Positions 24,311 through 62,011 of a DNA stretch of 64,000 nt are shown piece by piece; positions within the stretch are counted from its first letter, which is position 1; every line of letters starts with the position of its first letter. The translations under genes were made by a program, and so were the position numbers. The stretch covers positions 124,001 through 188,000 of the forward strand of contig JARLGU010000012.1 in assembly GCA_031292625.1 (NCBI GenBank), given 5' to 3'. Below the pieces are notes generated by a model. It did not search any database and had not been told where the DNA came from. It saw only the letters and a list, made by a program, of their open reading frames with translations. This stretch comes from Capsulimonadaceae bacterium. Its GTDB lineage: Bacteria; Armatimonadota; Armatimonadia; Armatimonadales; Capsulimonadaceae.

Positions 24311-24401
<91 letters not shown>

Positions 24402-24434
24402 CTGAGGCTGCCGATGACGCTGACGTCGGGCGTT

Positions 24435-24510
24435 TGGTGGGGCTGGAGGGAATCGAACCCCCGACACGCCGCTTAGGACGCGGCTGCTCTATCCCCTGAG
24501 CTACAACCCC
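24435..24510 (-). tRNA. tRNA-Arg (anticodon CCT)
   Basis: The 76-nt minus-strand gene has acceptor stem GGGGTTG/CAGCCCC, D-stem GCTC/GAGC, anticodon stem GCCGC/GCGGC with loop GTCCTAA (anticodon CCT, reading AGG), T-loop TTCGATT and encoded CCA. Confidence 0.95.
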
Positions 24511-25094: not shown

Positions 25095-28000
25095 ATGAAG
25101 ACATCGATTGGCAATAGGAAATCTCTCGTAACGATAATGGCGGCGGCCCTACTGCTCGTCGCAGGGCCATCGGCGGCGCTCGCGGCAAGCGACTCTGTGC
25201 TCACGACGATTTCAGTGAGTCCATCAATGGCCCTGGTGCTTCCGGGCGAGATCCAGCAGTTTTCGGCAATCGGCCTCGATCAATATGGCAGCCCGTTGGC
25301 GACACAGCCGCCATTTGGGTGGACCGTCTCTGGCGGCGGTACGATAGCGAACAGCGGCTTGTTCACTGCAGGGGGGGAGACGGGCGGTCCTTATTCGGCC
25401 ACAGCGTCCGCTGCCGGACTTTCGGGTTCGACGAACTTTAATATCGTGTCGACACGTACGGTAACATTCGGCAGTCCGATTTCGATTCCACTATCCGGTC
25501 AAAACGGGGTACTGGTTGCCGATATCGATGGAGATGGGCATCAGGACATTGTCGTAAGAACACAAGCTGGAGGCATCGTATTCCTATTTGGCAATGGCGA
25601 CAATACATTCACGCGCGTCGACTATCCATATGTCATTTCCGGCTTTAACCTGAACTCTGTCGGGATGGTAGCCGGAGATCTAAACGGAGACGGCAGCTTG
25701 GACATCGTTTGCAACACAAGTACCGGTGTTGCGGTGATCATGAATGCTGGCAACCGGAACTTTGCACGTCCCTTGCTCTATCCTGTCCTGTCGAATTGCG
25801 AAGCCGTTGCGCTTGGGGACTTCCGCGAGAACGGGAAGCTCGACATTGCATGCGTGAGCACGGGCAGCGGTTACGGTGCGGCTACCAATACCCTCACGGT
25901 GCTTTTGAACTACGGCGAAGGTAACTTCGGCGCCCCGGTAAATTATTCAATTCCAGGTGGCTATTACGGATATGTAATGGGCGTTGTTGCTCTCGACGTG
26001 AACTCGGACGGTCATCTGGACCTTGTATGTAGCGAGGAAGACGAACTCGATACGGCGAAATCGTCTGTCTTTCTCGGCGCTGGAGATGGCACCTTCACCC
26101 TTTCACCTAAGTCGCCAATTACCGTCGCTGGCGCATCTCTCTTGGCGACTGACCTAAATAACGACGGGATCCTCGACTTAGTCGCGTCGGACCACTGGGC
26201 AGGGCAGCCGCGATGGGGCATCTGTGACGGGAAGGGAGGCTTTAGTTCGATGACGGCGTCAGGAAATGGCTGGGCCGGGCCAATCGTTGCGGCCGACTTT
26301 GACGGCTGCGGATATAAGGATCTGGCGCAAGCTTATTCGTCGTCGCAAAACGTTGTGATTTTCGCTAGTAACGGTGACGGCACATTTGCACCGTGGGTGG
26401 GATATTCGCTAATAGCGTCGAACCCAGCCGTCGGAGACTTTAACGAAGACGGGCAACCAGACCTTGTCCTCTATTCAGATCCAACCCAGGTTGTCATCTA
26501 TCCCAACACCACAAACCCAGCGCCAACCATTACGTACCTTAGCCCCAATATCGCGCCCGTCGGCACGGCACTCACGTTGACCATTCACGGACATGGACTG
26601 CTTAGCCGTTCCGTAGCTAATTGGAACGGAACGCCCCTTCCAACTACGTTTAATTACTTAGACGGTACGCTCACTGCGAGCGTGCCCGCGGGATTGTTGA
26701 CCGCGCCGGGGTCTGCAACGGTTACGGTTACCACCGCGTCGCCAGGCGGCGGCACATCGAACTCTCTTACCATATCCTTCGCCAGTTCAGCTCCGACGCC
26801 TACGCTTTCCCCTGGTAGTGGCACGTATGCGAACTCGGTCACGGTGACCTTGTCCGATATGCTGAAGGATCCGTTGCTCAAGTTCTACTACACAACGGAC
26901 GGGTCCAAGCCTACGGTTTCATCGACACTCTATTCAGCTCCCTTTACGCTTGATTCCAGCGCAACGGTCAACGCGATTGCGGTTACGTCGGGCTACTCGA
27001 ATAGCGCCGTGGGTTCCGCGACCTACACGCTCTTGCCGCCCGCGCCAACGCCGACGTTCTCGCCGACGCCGGGTTCGTTCGCGAATACGGCGAGCGTGAC
27101 GATCAGCGATACGGACTCTAGTGCAACGATCTATTACACGACGGACGGCTCGACGCCGACGACAGGCTCTACGCCGTATACCGGACCGGTGGCGCTGAGC
27201 GCGACGAGTACGATCAAGGCGATCGCCGTCGACACGGCAAGCTACTCGAACAGCGCGGTGGCCTCGGCTACCTACACGCTCTTGCCGCCCGCGCCAACGC
27301 CGACATTCTCACCGACGCCGGGCTCGTTCGCGAATACGGCGCACGTGACGATCAGCGATGCAGACTCTAGCGCAACGATCTATTACTCGACAGACGGTTC
27401 GACGCCGACGACGAGTTCGACGCCGTATACCGGACCGGTGGCGCTGAGCGCGACGAGTACGATCAAGGCGATCGCCGTTGACCCGGCAAGCTACTCGAAT
27501 AGCGCCGTGGCCTCGGCGACGTACACGCTCTTGCCGCCCGCTCCGACTCCCACCTTCTCACGGACAGCGGGCTCGTTCGGGAACTCGACGAACGTGACGA
27601 TCAGCGATACGGATACGTCGGCGACGATCTATTATACGACGGACGGCTCGACGCCGACGACAAGCTCTACGCCGTACACCGGACCGGTGGCGCTGACCGC
27701 GACGACGACGATCAAGGCGATCGCCGTTGACACGGCAAGCTACTCGAATAGCGCAGTGGCCTCGGCGGTGTATACGCTGGCCTCGCCTGCCGCGACGCCG
27801 TCGTTCTCCCCGACACCCGGTCCGTTCGCGAACTCGGTGAGCGTTGCGATCGCCGATAGCACGCCGGGAGCGACGATTTATTACACGACCGATGGAATGA
27901 CGCCGACCACCGAGTCGGCGCAGTACACTCTGCCGCTGACCGTGACCCAGGCGACTCCGATCAATGCAATTGCCGTCGCGCCGGGTTATTCGACCAGCGC

Positions 28001-28784
28001 CGTGGGCTCCGCGGCGTACTCGATCTTGCCGCCAGCGGCGACACCGGTGATCATGCCGGCGTCCGGCTCGTATCCGGGCACTCGGAGCGTGACGATTACG
28101 GACGGCACGGCCGGCGTGACGATCTATTACACACTCGATGGCTCGACGCCGACCACCGCATCCGCTGTTTATAGCGCACCGCTCACGATTACGAGTACGA
28201 CGACGATCAAGGCAATCGCGGCCTCGGGCGATTCGTCGACGAGCGGCGTCGCCTCGGGGACAATCACGATTGTCTCGGCGTCGGGATTTTCGTATTCGGC
28301 GGGTCTCAACTTCTTCTCAAGCCCGTACGACTATCCGGGTGTCGCCCTGGATACGCTGTTCGGCTATACAGGCGTCAAGCTCGCGGTGTTCGATCCATCG
28401 TCGTATGCCTGGGCGGTCACGCCGACGGCGCCAGCGGATGCGCTCCGGCTGGGGGGCGGTTACTGGGCCCGATTCCCGCATGCGGTGACGTTGACGAGCA
28501 TCGGGACGCCTGCTCCATCGGGATCGCCTTTTGCGATCACGTTGGCGGCGGGATGGAACATGATCGGCGACCCGTTTACAACGGCCGCGCCGCTCTCGTC
28601 GATCACTTTCGGCGCCGATGGAATGAGTTATGCCGGTGCGGTTTTGAGCGGCCTCGTAGGCCCGGCGCTCTGGGCTTACGACTCTTCGTCGAACGGCTAC
28701 ATCAGCGCGACGAGTCTCGAACCCCTGAAAGGGTACTGGATCTTCGCCTATTCGGCGACCTCGATGAGCGTGCCTCATCCCTAG
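25095..28784 (+). CDS. Large secreted protein with FG-GAP and chitobiase-type repeats
   Basis: The 1229-residue exported protein has a signal peptide (VTIMAAALLLVAGPSAALA). Next is an Ig-like bacterial domain (TTISVSPSMALVLPGEIQQFSAIG), then FG-GAP/VCBS-like repeats of the form DxDxDGxxDIV up to residue about 470, which usually form a calcium-binding beta-propeller. An IPT/TIG-like domain follows (ITYLSPNIAPVGTALTLTIHGHGL). Next come six or more chitobiase C-terminal-type repeats of about 83 residues (ATIYYTTDGSTPTTSSTPYTGP), three nearly identical in DNA. The last 170 residues (AGWNMIGDPF, GYWIFAY) resemble surface-layer terminal modules. Probably a cell-surface or extracellular adhesin or carbohydrate-binding protein; no catalytic domain is seen. 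Confidence 0.85.
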   Translation: MKTSIGNRKSLVTIMAAALLLVAGPSAALAASDSVLTTISVSPSMALVLPGEIQQFSAIGLDQYGSPLATQPPFGWTVSGGGTIANSGLFTAGGETGGPYSATASAAGLSGSTNFNIVSTRTVTFGSPISIPLSGQNGVLVADIDGDGHQDIVVRTQAGGIVFLFGNGDNTFTRVDYPYVISGFNLNSVGMVAGDLNGDGSLDIVCNTSTGVAVIMNAGNRNFARPLLYPVLSNCEAVALGDFRENGKLDIACVSTGSGYGAATNTLTVLLNYGEGNFGAPVNYSIPGGYYGYVMGVVALDVNSDGHLDLVCSEEDELDTAKSSVFLGAGDGTFTLSPKSPITVAGASLLATDLNNDGILDLVASDHWAGQPRWGICDGKGGFSSMTASGNGWAGPIVAADFDGCGYKDLAQAYSSSQNVVIFASNGDGTFAPWVGYSLIASNPAVGDFNEDGQPDLVLYSDPTQVVIYPNTTNPAPTITYLSPNIAPVGTALTLTIHGHGLLSRSVANWNGTPLPTTFNYLDGTLTASVPAGLLTAPGSATVTVTTASPGGGTSNSLTISFASSAPTPTLSPGSGTYANSVTVTLSDMLKDPLLKFYYTTDGSKPTVSSTLYSAPFTLDSSATVNAIAVTSGYSNSAVGSATYTLLPPAPTPTFSPTPGSFANTASVTISDTDSSATIYYTTDGSTPTTGSTPYTGPVALSATSTIKAIAVDTASYSNSAVASATYTLLPPAPTPTFSPTPGSFANTAHVTISDADSSATIYYSTDGSTPTTSSTPYTGPVALSATSTIKAIAVDPASYSNSAVASATYTLLPPAPTPTFSRTAGSFGNSTNVTISDTDTSATIYYTTDGSTPTTSSTPYTGPVALTATTTIKAIAVDTASYSNSAVASAVYTLASPAATPSFSPTPGPFANSVSVAIADSTPGATIYYTTDGMTPTTESAQYTLPLTVTQATPINAIAVAPGYSTSAVGSAAYSILPPAATPVIMPASGSYPGTRSVTITDGTAGVTIYYTLDGSTPTTASAVYSAPLTITSTTTIKAIAASGDSSTSGVASGTITIVSASGFSYSAGLNFFSSPYDYPGVALDTLFGYTGVKLAVFDPSSYAWAVTPTAPADALRLGGGYWARFPHAVTLTSIGTPAPSGSPFAITLAAGWNMIGDPFTTAAPLSSITFGADGMSYAGAVLSGLVGPALWAYDSSSNGYISATSLEPLKGYWIFAYSATSMSVPHP
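27040..27790 (+). repeat. Three tandem near-identical 249-bp coding repeats
   Basis: Three copies of an 83-codon unit beginning LLPPAPTPTF lie in tandem inside the large secreted protein gene. They match so closely at DNA level that copy-number change by recombination is likely. Confidence 0.8.
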
Positions 28785-36092: not shown

Positions 36093-36146
36093 TTGACATC
36101 CTGCCGCCTGCCGGTTACAATAACGGCAATGCTTCATCGCTGAAGC
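36093..36146 (+). promoter_or_regulatory. Promoter and start-site palindrome of the oxidoreductase gene
   Basis: TTGACA (36093-36098) and TACAAT (36116-36121) are 17 bp apart. A perfect hairpin or operator GCTTCA-TCGC-TGAAGC (36131-36146) follows 9 bp after the -10 box. Confidence 0.7.
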
Positions 36147-37492: not shown

Positions 37493-39544
37493 ATGATCAC
37501 GAAGACCGCGGGAGTGCTGGCGCTGATTTGCCTCGCGTTCGGCGCAAGCCTTGTCTGGGCGAGCGATCCTGATAGCCCGGTAATCGCGTCCGTCGGCATA
37601 TCCACGATCACCTATGCCCAGGCGAACATTGTTCCGCCGGTCTCCCCCGGAACGCCAACCGCTTCGGCAAGCAGCGACGATCAAGCTCGCTTGAAACGAC
37701 TGATCCTCAAGGATGTGACCGAAAACGTCCGCCAGGAGATCGGCGTTGGCGTAACCGACGACGATCTCAAGCAGATCGCCGTAGCGGAGACCAGTAGCCT
37801 TGGCGATCTCGACTGGGCCGTGCGGCAGATGCACGATCACGCCGATCAGCTCGATGCCTGCCTTCGCGGCGCGCGCGCCGTATACGACAGCGGCGACAAA
37901 CCAGACGGCGCGTTCGATAAGTACGTCAAAGGGAAAGCGCCTCGTGCGCTCTGGGATACGGTGCTTCCGGCCGCGAAATCGCAAGCTCAGCGTGATGTTT
38001 ACATCAAGCAGATCGCAGACGAGCGGAGCGTGACCGTCGACCAGTTGCGCGATCCCCAAAAGTACCGGCCGCTCGCGATGATGCGCAATACGATGCTTGC
38101 GGTTGTGCGAAGGATTGGTCGGAAGAATGCGGCGGCTCGCGCATTTGCGGATTCGATCAAGCCTCCGACCGGTATCGACGATGTATTGCCGGTCATGCCG
38201 CGGGATGTGCAAAAGGCCTACGACGCCTGGTGGCGCAACCAATATCGAAGCGCCGGTATTGAGATCGCGGACCGCCGGTTTATCGGTTTGTATGGCGAAC
38301 TCGGTTTGCCGGCGCCGCCCGTAAAGAGTGCGCCGCCCTTGCCTGCCAACGTTCCCTCTGCCGCGCCGGTTCATCCGGCGACGCCGGCGGCGTCATCTCC
38401 TCCGGCCCCCGCGCCGGTTCGTCCCGCGACGCCTGTCGCGGCGTCTCCTCCGGCCCCCGCGCCGGCTCATCCCGCGACGCCTGTCGCGGCGTCTCCTCCG
38501 GTCCCCGCGCCGGTTCGTCCCGCGACACCGGTTGCGGCGTCTCCTCCGGCCCCCGCGCCGGCTCATCCCGCGACGCCTGTCGCGGCGTCGCCGCCGGCCC
38601 CCGCGCCGGTTCGTCCCGCAACACCGGCGGCGTCATCGCCTCCGATCCCCGCGCCGGTTCATCCTGCGACACCGGTCGCGTCGCCGTCCATAACGGCCGT
38701 TAAGCCGGCTACTGGCGCTCCAGATGCCTCGGGAGCGACGATGGCGACGATTCGGAGCGAGGGTGCAACGCCTGCGCTCCCGGCAGCGCCGCTTGCGAAG
38801 AGCCACACGGATTCGCAGCCCTCGTTGCCAGCCGCTGGGCAGACCGTGCAACCCGTCGCAAATCGCGTTGCGTCCTCCGACGCAGCTCCCGTTGGCGCAT
38901 CGGACCGGCGGGCGCCGAGCGCCAAGGTTGAGTTTCGCTGGTTGCAGCCGGTTCAGTCATCGCTAAATCCTCGAGCCCGCTATCGATTGATTTCGGGATT
39001 GGAAGGCGGATCCCCGGTCTTTTCGTTTCACGACAACCGGACGGGCCAGACCTTCCGCGATGGCGCAGCGATCCGCGCGGAGTTCCTCGGCATCGTGTCG
39101 CATTCCTCCCGGGGCGGTCGCCGGTTCGTTGTGCCGGCGCAACTCATCGCTGGAACCGGTCTTCACCCGGCGCTGCTTCTCGACGAGGGGCGGCGTGCGA
39201 AGGTCGTCGCTTTGGCCGCGGAGATGCGTCAATATCTTGGCCTGCTGGACGCGTCGCCGACGATTGATGGCGCCGCCGATATCTCGGGCGCGGAGGCTCG
39301 CTCCGATCCGGGCGTCAAAGGGGCCTTCGTCGATCTATTTCTGCAAAGCGACGGCTGCGTCAAGCTCGAGGCCTTTTCTGGGCGACACGCGGGCGCGATA
39401 CTAGCCGTGATCGTGGACGATAAGATCGTGACGGCCTCGCCGATTACCGACCAGATTACGGGATACCAGGTTGAGCTTGCGAGAACCTTTGAAAGCCTCG
39501 ATCAAGCGCGCAACCTCGCGGCCCAGATCAATGGAACGCACTAG
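37493..39544 (+). CDS. Exported protein with Pro/Ala repeat linker and SecD P1-like C-terminus
   Basis: The 683-residue protein has a signal peptide (GVLALICLAFGASLVWA). Residues about 30-270 form a helical domain beginning VIASVGISTITYAQAN, faintly like a SurA-type chaperone N-domain. Residues about 285-400 are a low-complexity linker of PAPVRPATPVAASPP-type units. The last 190 residues end VKLEAFSGRHAGAILAVIVDDKIVTASPI then ITGYQVELARTFESLDQARNLAAQIN. This closely resembles the SecD first periplasmic (P1 head) domain around its RLAIVLDGKVISAPVI...ITGxFTxEEAxxLA stretch, but without SecD membrane helices. A role in late export or folding is inference. Confidence 0.6.
   Translation: MITKTAGVLALICLAFGASLVWASDPDSPVIASVGISTITYAQANIVPPVSPGTPTASASSDDQARLKRLILKDVTENVRQEIGVGVTDDDLKQIAVAETSSLGDLDWAVRQMHDHADQLDACLRGARAVYDSGDKPDGAFDKYVKGKAPRALWDTVLPAAKSQAQRDVYIKQIADERSVTVDQLRDPQKYRPLAMMRNTMLAVVRRIGRKNAAARAFADSIKPPTGIDDVLPVMPRDVQKAYDAWWRNQYRSAGIEIADRRFIGLYGELGLPAPPVKSAPPLPANVPSAAPVHPATPAASSPPAPAPVRPATPVAASPPAPAPAHPATPVAASPPVPAPVRPATPVAASPPAPAPAHPATPVAASPPAPAPVRPATPAASSPPIPAPVHPATPVASPSITAVKPATGAPDASGATMATIRSEGATPALPAAPLAKSHTDSQPSLPAAGQTVQPVANRVASSDAAPVGASDRRAPSAKVEFRWLQPVQSSLNPRARYRLISGLEGGSPVFSFHDNRTGQTFRDGAAIRAEFLGIVSHSSRGGRRFVVPAQLIAGTGLHPALLLDEGRRAKVVALAAEMRQYLGLLDASPTIDGAADISGAEARSDPGVKGAFVDLFLQSDGCVKLEAFSGRHAGAILAVIVDDKIVTASPITDQITGYQVELARTFESLDQARNLAAQINGTH
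38370..38690 (+). repeat. Tandem Pro/Ala-coding repeats
   Basis: Units of about 60 bp encoding PVAASPPAPAPxxPAT are repeated about five times in the gene at 37493-39544, forming a flexible linker. GC-rich and prone to length change. Confidence 0.75.
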
Positions 39545-58873: not shown

Positions 58874-58881
58874 GAGATTTG
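58874..58881. repeat. Target-site duplication, left copy
   Basis: GAGATTTG directly before the left inverted repeat matches the right copy at 62004-62011. Eight base pairs is the usual IS1-family duplication size. Confidence 0.9.
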
Positions 58882-58890
58882 GGTAGTGGG

Positions 58891-59721
58891 TCAGTTTGAA
58901 TTGAGTAACGCGACGACGTCTTCGAGCGTCCAAATCTTGTCAGTCACACCCGCCGCGAACGCCGGGGTCGTCTTGATCGTCTGATGGATGCGAACGAAGT
59001 TGTAGTACATGAAGTGCAGCGAGATCGCCGCCGCGTGGTTCTCTACCTTCTTTGAGAAGGCGTTCGTCAAGCGAGTGAACCGCCGCATACTCATGCGCAT
59101 CGTCAGGTTGTGCCGCTCGTTGATGCTCGTGCTGATGAAATCAGAGTCGGGCTTGCCGATCTTTGGCCGCTTGGACGCCGACAGGCATACGGCGGGGCTG
59201 TAGCGCTTCTCCGATAACGGGTCGCTGCCATACTCCTTGACGAGCATGGCATAGTCGATATTGTTTCCAAAGGCCCCTTTGACCGCGTTCAGGTACGGCT
59301 TATGCGCGTCCGTGGTAAGCTGCACGCGGTTTGTTAGGCGATCCGCAACGTCCTGCATGAACTCGAATGCCGCATCGGCGTCACGCGTGCTTACCAGCCA
59401 GCTAAGAACGATCTTCGTATCAGCATCAATGGCCGTCCACGTCCAAACGTCGCCAATACCTAACTCGCCGCGCCGCTCGTCAGGTACGTTCTTATCCTTG
59501 CATCCAACGAACGACCAGATTTCATCGCACTGGACACGCTCGCACGCCAGGTTGCGAAGAACGCCATCCTGGTAACGCTCACAAGCGCCGCCGAGATCCA
59601 CGAGGAGTTTAACCACCGTGTTCTTGGCGACGCCTGTAATGCGCACAGTTGAACGGATCGAGTTGCCTTCGACAAGGCAGCGGATAACTGCGGTGCGGCG
59701 TTCAGATTTAAGCGTGTTCAT
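58891..59721 (-). CDS. IS1-family DDE transposase
   Basis: The 276-residue single-frame transposase starts MNTLKSERRTAVIRCLVEG at 59721. It has a helix-turn-helix (NSIRSTVRITGVAKNTVVKLL), then the catalytic aspartate in QCDEIWSFVG, the second in TTDAHKPYL, and the glutamate in SINERHNLTMRMSMRRFTRLTNAFSKKVEN. The last block is typical of the IS1 family. It differs from classic IS1, which uses a frameshift between InsA and InsB. Its stop codon lies inside the left inverted repeat. It has its own strong promoter with a large palindrome. Confidence 0.93.
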   Translation of the reverse strand: MNTLKSERRTAVIRCLVEGNSIRSTVRITGVAKNTVVKLLVDLGGACERYQDGVLRNLACERVQCDEIWSFVGCKDKNVPDERRGELGIGDVWTWTAIDADTKIVLSWLVSTRDADAAFEFMQDVADRLTNRVQLTTDAHKPYLNAVKGAFGNNIDYAMLVKEYGSDPLSEKRYSPAVCLSASKRPKIGKPDSDFISTSINERHNLTMRMSMRRFTRLTNAFSKKVENHAAAISLHFMYYNFVRIHQTIKTTPAFAAGVTDKIWTLEDVVALLNSN

Positions 59722-59724
59722 ATT

Positions 59725-59768
59725 GACTAGTATACTTGACATGGTCGCGCTTGTCAAGCATTCTAGTC
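59725..59768 (-). promoter_or_regulatory. Transposase promoter inside a 44-bp interrupted palindrome
   Basis: On the minus strand TTGACA (59752-59757) and TATACT (59729-59734) are 17 bp apart. The whole region is symmetric: GACTAG-N5-TTGACA-N10-TGTCAA-N5-CTAGTC, centred near 59746. Such a double inverted repeat over the -35 and -10 boxes looks like an operator. Confidence 0.7.
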
Positions 59769-59775
59769 ATTTTAT

Positions 59776-59991
59776 CTAAAACTGATATCGCAACCTAACA
59801 GTACGTGGGTCACCTTGCGGATCTTGCAGTTCGCGATCTGGCCGCGAGAATGGCGGTAACAATTTCGGGCGAGACTCTTCCATACACGGTATGTTCTCCA
59901 GTTTTGAGAGCAGTTCAACGAGCTCAGCAAGCTGCTCAGGATTGACGCCTCTATTGTGTTTTATTATTTTCTCTGTATCTAGCTTTGCCAT
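59776..59991 (-). CDS. Small cargo protein, 71 aa
   Basis: I do not recognise this short protein (starts MAKLDTEKIIKHNRGVNPEQLAELVELLSKLEN). An amphipathic helix covers residues about 18-35, and a Pro/Arg-rich tail ends RTVRLRYQF. Its ATG at 59991 follows the protease gene stop by 10 bp, so it is the last gene of the cargo operon and probably works with the protease. It ends 54 bp before the transposase start. Confidence 0.55.
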   Translation of the reverse strand: MAKLDTEKIIKHNRGVNPEQLAELVELLSKLENIPCMEESRPKLLPPFSRPDRELQDPQGDPRTVRLRYQF

Positions 59992-60001
59992 TGTTGTCGC
60001 C

Positions 60002-60862
60002 CTATGAGATGGGTACGTGTTTGCCTTGTATGTGAAGAAAGCCGCTATACCCAAGCTTTTGCATATAGTCTACGAGTAATCGATGATAAGAGCGAATAGT
60101 CTTACTCAGTTCAGCATCCTCCCCAAAATCTTCGATCTTCAAGTTTAAATCTTTGCGCAGGACATCCATCGATATATTCCGACTATGAGCATGCCACAAA
60201 CTAGTGTCATTCAACTTTTTCCCGACCGTAGCCGCCCTTGCTGTCCGCATCTTGAGCGTAACTTTACGCTTCCTAGTTTCGGTAACAATCCAGTTCTTAA
60301 ACTTGTAACGAACTAGCCAGTCTTTTAAAAGCGCAATAGAAAGTTCTCTTGATTGCTCGATGCTGTAAAGTTCAGCTTGGTCAAACCGGAGCAAGATTGC
60401 CATTTCGCCAGTGGTCAACGATCCTTCGGCGGACTTTTTTAATAGGCGCTCGTACTGAATTAAGTACCCAAGCGCCGGAACCTGCAATTTGTCCCGCCGT
60501 GGGATCTGCGGATCAATCGGACCGAGCACCGAGAAGTAGTCCATGTATATGGCGTCACCAGACATTACCAGGACAGTCCCTGCCGACATTGCGTAATTTG
60601 GAACAATGAAATCAACCTCTTTGTAGTTATGTCGAAGTGTGTTAACGATGCGCTCCACCACTTCGATGTATCCTCCGCCAGTTTCCAGGACGAAGACAAG
60701 TCGCTCTTTCTTTTGTTGAATGCTATCGACGCCATCTCGGATAAACTCATCGGCACCTACCAACAGTGATCCGGCATATGCCAGAACGTCTGCCTTGCAA
60801 TGAAGCCCGAGTTGCTCGTTAAACTTGTTAAGCTGCTCTTCAATGAGATTGTTTGCCTGCAC
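60002..60862 (-). CDS. SDH/SppA-like serine protease on mobile element
   Basis: The 286-residue protein matches the ClpP/crotonase-fold SDH_sah (serine dehydrogenase proteinase) family. RLVFVLETGGGYIEVVERIVNTLR is followed by VDFIVPNYAMSAGTVLVMSGDAIYMDYFSVLGPIDPQI, with the probable nucleophile Ser93 in AMSAGT. It has no signal peptide or membrane helix, so it is cytoplasmic unless tethered by a partner. Such proteases are usually membrane-associated in other genomes; a two-helix membrane protein is encoded just upstream. The C-terminal 120 residues are helical and basic. It lies 17 bp after the small basic gene and 10 bp before the 71-aa gene. Confidence 0.82.
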   Translation of the reverse strand: MQANNLIEEQLNKFNEQLGLHCKADVLAYAGSLLVGADEFIRDGVDSIQQKKERLVFVLETGGGYIEVVERIVNTLRHNYKEVDFIVPNYAMSAGTVLVMSGDAIYMDYFSVLGPIDPQIPRRDKLQVPALGYLIQYERLLKKSAEGSLTTGEMAILLRFDQAELYSIEQSRELSIALLKDWLVRYKFKNWIVTETRKRKVTLKMRTARAATVGKKLNDTSLWHAHSRNISMDVLRKDLNLKIEDFGEDAELSKTIRSYHRLLVDYMQKLGYSGFLHIQGKHVPIS

Positions 60863-60879
60863 TTATCCCTCCACTGCGG

Positions 60880-61134
60880 TTATTCTGCTTCCTTCCGTGC
60901 CCAACGTGCTTCTGCGGCCTTCTTGGCAATATCGCGCCGCTGATCTGCGCTCATGGATGCTGCTCGGGCTTTTCCACCCCTGAGCCCTCCCATTCGCCCC
61001 AGCGCGACAGCTGCGGGATTCTTACGGTCTTCCGACATTGAAGGCGCGTCCCCAACGGCTTCCTGAAAGACCCGGAAAGCGGCTTCGTTCACATCCTCGG
61101 GACCTTGCTTCGCCCTACTAGTACGTTGTGTCAT
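60880..61134 (-). CDS. Small basic GGK-type cargo protein
   Basis: The 84-residue protein ends in NPAAVALGRMGGLRGGKARAASMSADQRRDIAKKAAEARWARKEAE. This LGRxGGLxGGKARAxxxSxxxRxxIAxKAAxARW pattern occurs in many small uncharacterised bacterial proteins, often near mobile genes, and suggests nucleic-acid binding. The N-terminal half is acidic and helical. Its start overlaps the upstream membrane-protein gene by 4 bp (ATGA), so both are translated together. Function unknown. Confidence 0.72.
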   Translation of the reverse strand: MTQRTSRAKQGPEDVNEAAFRVFQEAVGDAPSMSEDRKNPAAVALGRMGGLRGGKARAASMSADQRRDIAKKAAEARWARKEAE

Positions 61135-61511
61135 GGCTTATTGTCGCTAACTCCAAGATGGTTGTCGGTGTGATACGGGCTACCGAAATAGTAGCCCAGG
61201 ATGAAAGCGAGGAGGGGACTGAACATGGTCCCTACCACCTGAAGCACCCGGAGGATTTCGTCAATCTCGGCAGCCAGCTTGTTGGCAACCGTTTCCGGGA
61301 ACCTTACTGCTAGTGCGATAAGACAGAAAATGACGAGGAAGGCACCGGCGATTGCCCAGCCAAATATGAGGATGAGCTTCGACGCTACTTCCCGCGCCGC
61401 CCCCTCTCGCACCAGTGCTATCGGCTTGTCTAACGACCTGCGGTCTTTCGGTTTAACGTCAGCGGACCCGATCTCGACTGTGAGATCGGCAGATTGATCG
61501 TCATTAGGCAT
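61131..61511 (-). CDS. Two-helix membrane cargo protein
   Basis: The 126-residue protein has a hydrophilic N-terminus of about 45 residues, one membrane helix at about 46-70 (LILIFGWAIAGAFLVIFCLIALAV), a short loop and a second helix at about 92-112 (VVGTMFSPLLAFILGYYFG). I know no family. Its ATG shares one base with the stop of the upstream ribbon-helix-helix gene (TAATG), and its stop overlaps the next gene by 4 bp. It may anchor the cargo protease to the membrane or act as an effector. Confidence 0.7.
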   Translation of the reverse strand: MPNDDQSADLTVEIGSADVKPKDRRSLDKPIALVREGAAREVASKLILIFGWAIAGAFLVIFCLIALAVRFPETVANKLAAEIDEILRVLQVVGTMFSPLLAFILGYYFGSPYHTDNHLGVSDNKP

Positions 61512-61717
61512 TAGGGCACATCAAGCTCCTTGATTACCTTGTTGCTCGTTCCGATATAGACCCTATGCTTGTCTCTTTTCTCGTCCTGCAAGGCGTTCAT
61601 CACCTGCAACGAATTCTTGATGTACGTGCCAACGTCCACACCCGACCGGGAAGCATATTGCTCAAGGGTCGCGCGGGCTTCGTCAGTCAAAGTGATGTTG
61701 ATTCTACCGTCGGGCAT
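61511..61717 (-). CDS. Ribbon-helix-helix-like small regulator
   Basis: The 68-residue protein begins MPDGRINITLTDEARATLEQYASRSGVDVGTYIKNSL, a strand-helix-helix pattern typical of Arc/CopG-type repressors, often antitoxins. It is the first gene of the cargo operon, so it likely autoregulates it. I start it at the ATG at 61715-61717 because AGGAGG lies 8 bp upstream; a longer open frame exists upstream but does not look like a domain. A perfect 8-bp palindrome sits about 100 bp upstream. Confidence 0.72.
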   Translation of the reverse strand: MPDGRINITLTDEARATLEQYASRSGVDVGTYIKNSLQVMNALQDEKRDKHRVYIGTSNKVIKELDVP

Positions 61718-61815
61718 AACCGTTTTCCTCCTGCTCGTGCTATGCTTGTACCCACATGCTTGAGCAGTCATGCACAGTTTGACCGCAAATACCCTTAATT
61801 CCTTCCCTGTAAACC

Positions 61816-61834
61816 AAACTTTTTGCAAAAGTTT
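61816..61834. promoter_or_regulatory. Palindrome upstream of the cargo operon
   Basis: AAACTTTT-TGC-AAAAGTTT is a perfect 8-bp inverted repeat with a 3-bp centre, about 100 bp before the ribbon-helix-helix-like gene. It may be that regulator's operator. Confidence 0.45.
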
Positions 61835-62003
61835 TTCAACCCATCTAGCAAGCCGGTATAAGTTACAGGTACTTGCGCCCCGATAACCAAACGCGCGTTT
61901 ACACCTAATGCTGCCTCCGTTTTCCCGATTCGTAAACAACGGAGTCGCAAAAATCTATCCCGCGCAGGCATTTGCCGAATCGCCGTCAAACTGACCCACT
62001 ACC

Positions 62004-62011
62004 GAGATTTG
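62004..62011. repeat. Target-site duplication, right copy
   Basis: GAGATTTG directly after the right inverted repeat, identical to the left copy at 58874-58881. Confidence 0.9.

Follow-up and report, generated by a model that had tools for sequence, protein, structure and literature searches.

The DNA analyzed here is a 64,000-nucleotide stretch from a Capsulimonadaceae bacterium of the phylum Armatimonadota (GCA_031292625.1, contig JARLGU010000012.1, positions 124,001 to 188,000), referred to below as the window. At 58882–62003, it contains a 3122-bp element that is probably a cargo-carrying insertion sequence (IS) of the IS1 type, with a core of two ends, a DDE transposase, and a small protein termed GGK, with regulated transposition, and with a slot for addiction or anti-phage genes. 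The structure and mobility of this element family are well supported; we infer the functions of GGK, of a palindromic motif, and of an SDH-type protease with its small partner, as well as a defense function of the cargo in the window. Cargo-carrying ISs are known, and the new aspect is an IS1-type clade with a recurring second gene and an exchangeable, often defense-like cassette.

The element ends in perfect 18-bp inverted repeats and is flanked on both sides by the same 8 bp, GAGATTTG, as a target-site duplication. An earlier note on this DNA had described these ends and this duplication, and its coordinates are right. In the source genome, the end sequence occurs only in these two copies (up to 2 mismatches allowed), and the transposase and GGK genes are each present as a single copy. 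All six genes of the element lie on the minus strand. The features are as follows, with lengths in amino acids (aa):

58874–58881, no strand: target-site duplication, left copy GAGATTTG (from the sequence)
58882–58899, plus: left terminal inverted repeat GGTAGTGGGTCAGTTTGA at the transposase end; many relatives end in the same 18 bases
58891–59721, minus: IS1-type transposase (Pfam DDE_Tnp_IS1), very probably 276 aa from ATG 59721; the listed open reading frame (ORF) extends to TTG 59757
59729–59757, minus: promoter-like TTGACA-N17-TATACT before the transposase, recognized by eye; its position fits a conserved region of the relatives
59776–59991, minus: 71-aa small protein, candidate partner of the SDH protease, with relatives behind SDH genes elsewhere
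60002–60862, minus: SDH-type ClpP-like serine protease, 286 aa, GTG start (Pfam, 53.4 bits)
60880–61134, minus: GGK protein, 84 aa, the recurring second gene of the clade, judged from its recurrence in relatives
61131–61511, minus: 126-aa protein (2TM), found only here, with two apparent membrane helices recognized by eye
61511–61717, minus: 68-aa ribbon-helix-helix-like protein (RHH), with weak RHH_5/NikA-like matches below cut-off
61757–61774, no strand: operator-like palindrome copy with 2 mismatches, 40 bp before RHH (motif search)
61986–62003, minus: right terminal inverted repeat (from the sequence)
62004–62011, no strand: target-site duplication, right copy GAGATTTG (from the sequence)

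For the tight gene row reported previously, the spacing of the five cargo genes holds: RHH and 2TM overlap by 1 nt, 2TM and GGK overlap by 4 nt, and gaps of 17 and 10 nt separate GGK from SDH and SDH from the 71-aa gene, respectively. The transposase stands outside this row, since its probable start, which is common to four aligned relatives, follows the 71-aa gene at a distance of 54 nt and has a promoter-like sequence of its own.

Mobility is evident from two relatives on plasmids. The first is a 2634-bp element on plasmid 1 of Acidiphilium multivorum, in which an SDH gene accompanies GGK and the transposase; its place is unoccupied on plasmid 3 of that strain and on pACRY02 of A. cryptum. 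The second, on a Mesorhizobium loti plasmid, measures 3370 bp and contains GGK and PD-lambda-2-like genes, and its place is likewise unoccupied on two other Mesorhizobium plasmids. In each of the four comparisons, the overlap between the placed left and right flanks is exactly the 8 bases of the duplication. Because these empty sites are exact for two cargo-bearing relatives, the in silico comparisons show that core and cargo transpose as one unit with an 8-bp duplication, and the previous claim that the cargo travels with the element is thereby supported. For the window element itself, transposition as a unit is indicated only by its ends and duplication. It is very improbable that the architecture arose by chance, with a bare IS beside host genes or nested insertions framed by similar ends. 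An almost bare element does exist (locus L150; 1323 bp with GGK and transposase), but such an origin is contradicted by the precise ends and duplication of the window element, by the recurrence of this architecture across many phyla, and by the exact empty sites of the relatives. As a separate observation, the Acidiphilium element (L234, 3303–5936) is inserted at a RES-Xre toxin-antitoxin locus.

The window element belongs, by sequence comparison, to a widespread clade of IS1-like elements. Relatives were collected with an alignment of four transposases as the query from one genome per species (best 80 of 536 relatives, which are spread over many phyla) and, in a second scan, from viral contigs (best 80 of 100). 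All counts from the two scans describe these best-80 samples and are not frequencies. Elements were accepted as strict when their ends were alike in at least 13 of 18 bases and had an exact duplication, with a downstream limit of 250 bases in one scan and 1500 in the other. The 160 transposase loci yielded 79 strict elements (38 of 80 in genomes and 41 of 80 in viral contigs), compared with one of 80 random placements, and many of the remaining loci are broken by contig ends or have only one visible end. The strict elements range from 1323 to 4774 bp, and at least one called cargo ORF (≥57 aa) is present in 70 of the 75 gene-called genome elements or parts. Among the 155 regions used for the cargo counts below, the identical pairs L169/L170 and L180/L181 are counted twice; L034, on the same contig as L044, was dropped. 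In the literature searched, which covered only a minority of subscription papers, IS1-type elements that carry GGK or defense cargo are not described.

For the transposase, the match to DDE_Tnp_IS1 (PF03400) passes the Pfam cut-off (30.8 vs. 24.1 bits), in agreement with the IS1-type transposase that had been noted. The protein falls below the cut-off of the NCBIfam IS1 equivalog (57 vs. 100), and on these two scores it is assigned to a distant IS1 subgroup. The same transposase scored 22.5, just below the Pfam cut-off, in a genome-wide family search. The residues D78, D150, and E214 are invariant in all four aligned sequences. As in classical IS1, the element has an IS1-profile DDE transposase, inverted ends, and a short target duplication, which in the strict genome elements is 8 bp in 37 of 38 cases and 9 bp in one. 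Unlike the classical insA/insB' frameshifted pair, the transposase is a single ORF in the window and in its relatives. Furthermore, classical members have about 0.7–1.2 kb without cargo, whereas the window element has 3.1 kb with cargo and an extra GGK gene, and 77 of the 79 strict elements have at least 1.85 kb. Copy numbers differ as well, since the Armatimonadota genome G036 has 25 canonical IS1 matches, many of them nearly identical, whereas clade elements number one or two per genome. Single-ORF members of IS1 are known, and one IS1 subgroup in ISfinder (ISMhu11) has members of up to several kb, such that long IS1 members may already be catalogued; the papers searched do not mention this subgroup. 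ISs with passenger genes unrelated to transposition are a published concept, the transporter IS (tIS; PMC3129680, PMC9330008, and PMC7986276). In comparison, the clade described here has cargo as the rule throughout, its elements exchange this cargo, and they have in common a conserved second gene and a motif; passengers inside one transposing unit are found in the two plasmid-borne relatives.

The second conserved gene encodes GGK, with the sequence pattern KNPAAVALGRLGGLKGGKARA...RSEIAKKAAxARW and a basic C-terminal half. GGK is present in all 42 elements of the first set, in 71 of 80 genome loci (eight of the nine loci without it have <1.3 kb upstream of the transposase), in 61 of 80 viral regions (threshold 1e-5), and in 68 of 79 strict elements (38/38 from genomes and 30/41 from viral contigs). 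A search of 291 genomes from the phylum gave 20 GGK places, 12 of which are within 4 kb of a transposase match, and among 18 genomes with canonical or clade IS1 matches, a GGK match is found only in the three with clade elements. None of 30 canonical IS1 loci has GGK, which is a weak control that covers 1.5 kb per side and includes three clade members (L217, L218, and L221). The GGK and transposase distances are correlated (Mantel rho 0.41, 0/999 permutations, n = 132; host relatedness uncontrolled). The recurrence of GGK and its divergence together with the transposase show in silico that it is a part of the core and not ordinary cargo. Sister elements (L169–L172, L182, and L184) have the ends GGTAGTGGGCTACTTTGA or GGTAGTGGCCTGATTTGA and lack GGK upstream of the transposase. 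In addition, the GGK model recognizes the N-terminal part of the P63C cargo proteins of L049, L098, L100, and L105 (1e-6 to 1e-12), such that the core and one cargo type have the GGK motif in common. Since the P63C model also catches GGK genes, only P63C matches below 1e-30 were counted.

A palindromic, operator-like motif, TGCTTGA[GC]CG[GC]TCAAGCA, occurs 113 times (≤3 mismatches) in 65 of 116 elements or parts, compared with no occurrence in five dinucleotide shuffles and three in 1.32 Mb of flanks. Up to 90 bp before the transposase start, 48 copies are found, with −29 and −28, over the −10 region, as the most frequent positions, and 55 copies are near the GGK start, with 37 of them at the first GGK codon. 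The window has one copy before RHH and, outside the element, one 3-mismatch copy at 36130. We propose that the TGCTTGA palindrome, which extends over the GGK start and over the −10 region of the transposase, is a binding site for GGK (or for the transposase). Such binding would keep the expression of transposase and cargo low, much like InsA in classical IS1. GGK may instead be a transposition cofactor or DNA-bending protein, which would fit its basic C-terminal half, the three helices in its predicted fold (predicted template modeling score, 0.38), its co-divergence with the transposase, and the label histone H1 in a Mesorhizobium record. We consider this alternative possible but less likely than not; the motif at the GGK start codon favors an autoregulated gene. 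Comparison of the GGK and SDH sequences with solved structures gave nothing meaningful.

The cargo behaves in silico as an exchangeable slot. The Pfam families among 113 cargo ORFs (25 of 64 families were listed) include Xre-type helix-turn-helix (13), IrrE-type peptidase (9), P63C (5), SDH (4), HigB-like (4), Fic (2), and DUF3800 (2), as well as PemK, HicA, AAA_21, NYN, DUF433, N6_Mtase, Gp49, and others. Single proteins match the PADLOC models PD-Lambda-2_B (1e-45; L059 and L103), RmrA (8e-59; L119), SoFic (5e-53; L112), and HEC-04 (2e-52; L069), and no PADLOC match was found for the HigB-like and third proteins of the PD-lambda-2-like sets or for the RmrA partner. RmrA presumably corresponds to RosmerTA. 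Proteins that match models of the PD-lambda-2, RosmerTA, and SoFic systems are thus found in the cargo of relatives and not in the window, where none of the six proteins matches any defense model described in PADLOC. The order of HigB-like, Xre-peptidase, and third protein genes in the relatives is as described for PD-lambda-2 (PMC9519451). Models of five cargo families match 55 of the 155 regions (PD-lambda-2-like 14, RmrA 15, P63C 15, SDH 9, and Fic 2) and have no match in 1.33 Mb of flanks. The earlier description of an IS1-type element with extra genes is borne out, and relatives hold known defense or toxin-antitoxin genes in the same slot.

The cargo types have little or no relation to the transposase phylogeny (FastTree; 52 of 160 inner branches weak). 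The numbers of changes needed are 10 for the 10 rows with SDH, 16/16 for RmrA, 15/16 for PD-lambda-2-like, and 13/15 for P63C, and all cargo labels together require 54 changes, compared with a mean of 56.6 after shuffling. Swaps between close relatives are also apparent, as the nearest transposase relatives of the window element have RmrA-like (L044) and PD-lambda-2-like (L045) cargo. The slot may serve the element in that self-contained addiction or anti-phage modules make hosts retain it. An explanation that comes close to an even chance is that selection favored the cargo as an addiction module of the element itself and not as phage defense, such that a cell that loses the element would be harmed by the released protease. 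Plain toxin-antitoxin families are indeed found among the 113 cargo ORFs (HigB-like 4, HicA 1, PemK 1, and Gp49 1), and the cargo lies near the transposition genes as in Tn3 elements, for which toxin-antitoxin pairs have been proposed as addiction modules (PMC7157771). The matches to PD-Lambda-2_B, RmrA, SoFic, and HEC-04 at 1e-40 or better speak for defense, although defense and addiction overlap. According to the same source, the Tn3 elements are similar in having toxin-antitoxin genes inside the transposition module, which were acquired several times and possibly share its promoters. They differ in the transposase family; in the present elements, no resolvase was seen, the size is 3 kb, and the cargo is wider and includes defense genes.

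The cargo module in the window is proposed to be the SDH protease and its 71-aa partner. The protease passes the Pfam cut-off for SDH_protease (PF01972; 53.4 vs. 31.3) and falls below that of the NCBIfam equivalog (NF047768; 64 vs. 250). The residues G63, G64, S93, D117, and H226 are invariant in 11 of 11 sequences, and the conserved Ser, Asp, and His are thus present. It therefore resembles SDH-type serine proteinases in its Pfam match and catalytic-type residues, and differs in being paired with a small ORF. Plasmid-borne relatives with 42–51% identity occur in Methylosinus, Rhizobium, and E. coli, and two Armatimonadota genomes also hold relatives. Homologs of the 71-aa protein follow SDH in L094, L029, and L030 (Methylosinus and Rhizobium among them). 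A model of these proteins found only one more Rhizobium ORF (2e-15) and the L035 ORF (0.0015) among 888 ORFs, and L241 and L035 are further loci with a homolog behind SDH. The SDH pair or part of it is present in 19 of 5426 complete E. coli genomes, and the pair adjoins a phage repressor gene in all three prophage loci viewed (directly in two, with a small gene between in one). We take this position beside the repressor to be the rexAB place of lambda. In one E. coli prophage (L238, 3501–5280), the next genes after the repressor and the SDH pair are a HicAB pair in the opposite orientation. On Rhizobium plasmids, all three loci viewed have multiubiquitin and ThiF genes ahead of the SDH pair. 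By guilt by association, these neighborhoods hint at defense or addiction. In this scenario, the small partner would restrain or direct the protease, and infection or loss of the element would free it, resulting in growth arrest or the cleavage of a phage or host protein. Alternatively, the SDH protease and its neighbors may be element machinery that regulates transposition (e.g., by degrading the transposase), as its tight order with GGK and its presence in several clade elements could indicate. This is unlikely, since SDH is found in only 9 of 155 regions, unrelated genes are present instead in L044 and L045, and plasmids and prophages that lack this transposase also contain SDH with a small ORF. 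Another left end was noted at L249 (G145:C112, 334–2870), with GGK, an SDH gene, and, by eye, a proteasome-like Ntn-hydrolase ORF.

For the last two genes, RHH and 2TM, the remaining 41 first-set elements contain no homologs, and 2TM has no plasmid match and only three marginal matches in 150 relatives (E 0.004–0.007). The identity of RHH is weak, with all of its matches below cut-off, and neither 2TM, GGK, nor the 71-aa protein reaches a Pfam cut-off. RHH and 2TM are proposed to be a lineage-specific addition. Because they lack homologs in the relatives searched, the five-gene set is found only here. The earlier note had treated the five genes as one module and had named such a restricted occurrence as evidence against this view; the module is indeed not upheld, as GGK recurs with the transposase, SDH with its small ORF recurs elsewhere, and RHH and 2TM do not.

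Several findings weigh against a core with GGK, a regulatory palindrome, and an exchangeable slot with an SDH module. For the core, 11 of the 79 strict elements lack GGK, all of them from viral contigs; 8 of the 20 GGK places in the 291 genomes have no nearby transposase match; and 5 of the 75 gene-called elements have no called cargo gene. For the motif, it was derived from the same elements, such that flanks and shuffles are a control and no new data set; moreover, it is absent (3 mismatches) in 51 of 116 elements, and its copies at the GGK start coincide with coding sequence. For cargo exchange, weak branches are many and the well-supported branches alone force 8 (SDH) to 13 (RmrA) changes, and there is slight clustering of the labels "other" and P63C, for which 4 and 31 of 500 shuffles, respectively, gave values as low. 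For the SDH pair, the small partner is recognizably related in only six SDH loci; the 56-aa ORF of E. coli and the small ORFs of divergent SDH proteins do not match the 71-aa model; L094 has a stop codon in the SDH frame and several Rhizobium SDH copies look frameshifted; and the fold model of SDH is poor (mean predicted local distance difference test score, 46). SDH was also considered as a phage gene and rejected, with no relative in the viral-contig scan and two weak matches in phage records.

A broader and more tentative proposal is that these elements form an unnamed, compact family of defense transposons with a GGK regulator and operator that shuttles immune cassettes across phyla, phages, and plasmids, in which the SDH pair would be an undescribed immune or addiction system. 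Prophages, plasmids, and large islands are the carriers of most defense genes that move. If the proposal is true, hardly any vehicle for these genes would be simpler than a unit of 2–4 kb with a single transposase and an exchangeable cassette. The slot contents beside the PD-lambda-2-like and RmrA-like modules would provide a ready list of defense candidates, and GGK with its palindrome would give a handle on the co-regulation of transposition and cargo.

Elsewhere in the window, two tRNA genes are located on the minus strand at 24315–24510. A tandem repeat with a 249-bp unit (about 3 copies; 26989–28037) probably represents protein repeats, and a 48-bp tandem repeat (6.7 copies; 38361–38680) is GC-rich and proline/alanine-like.

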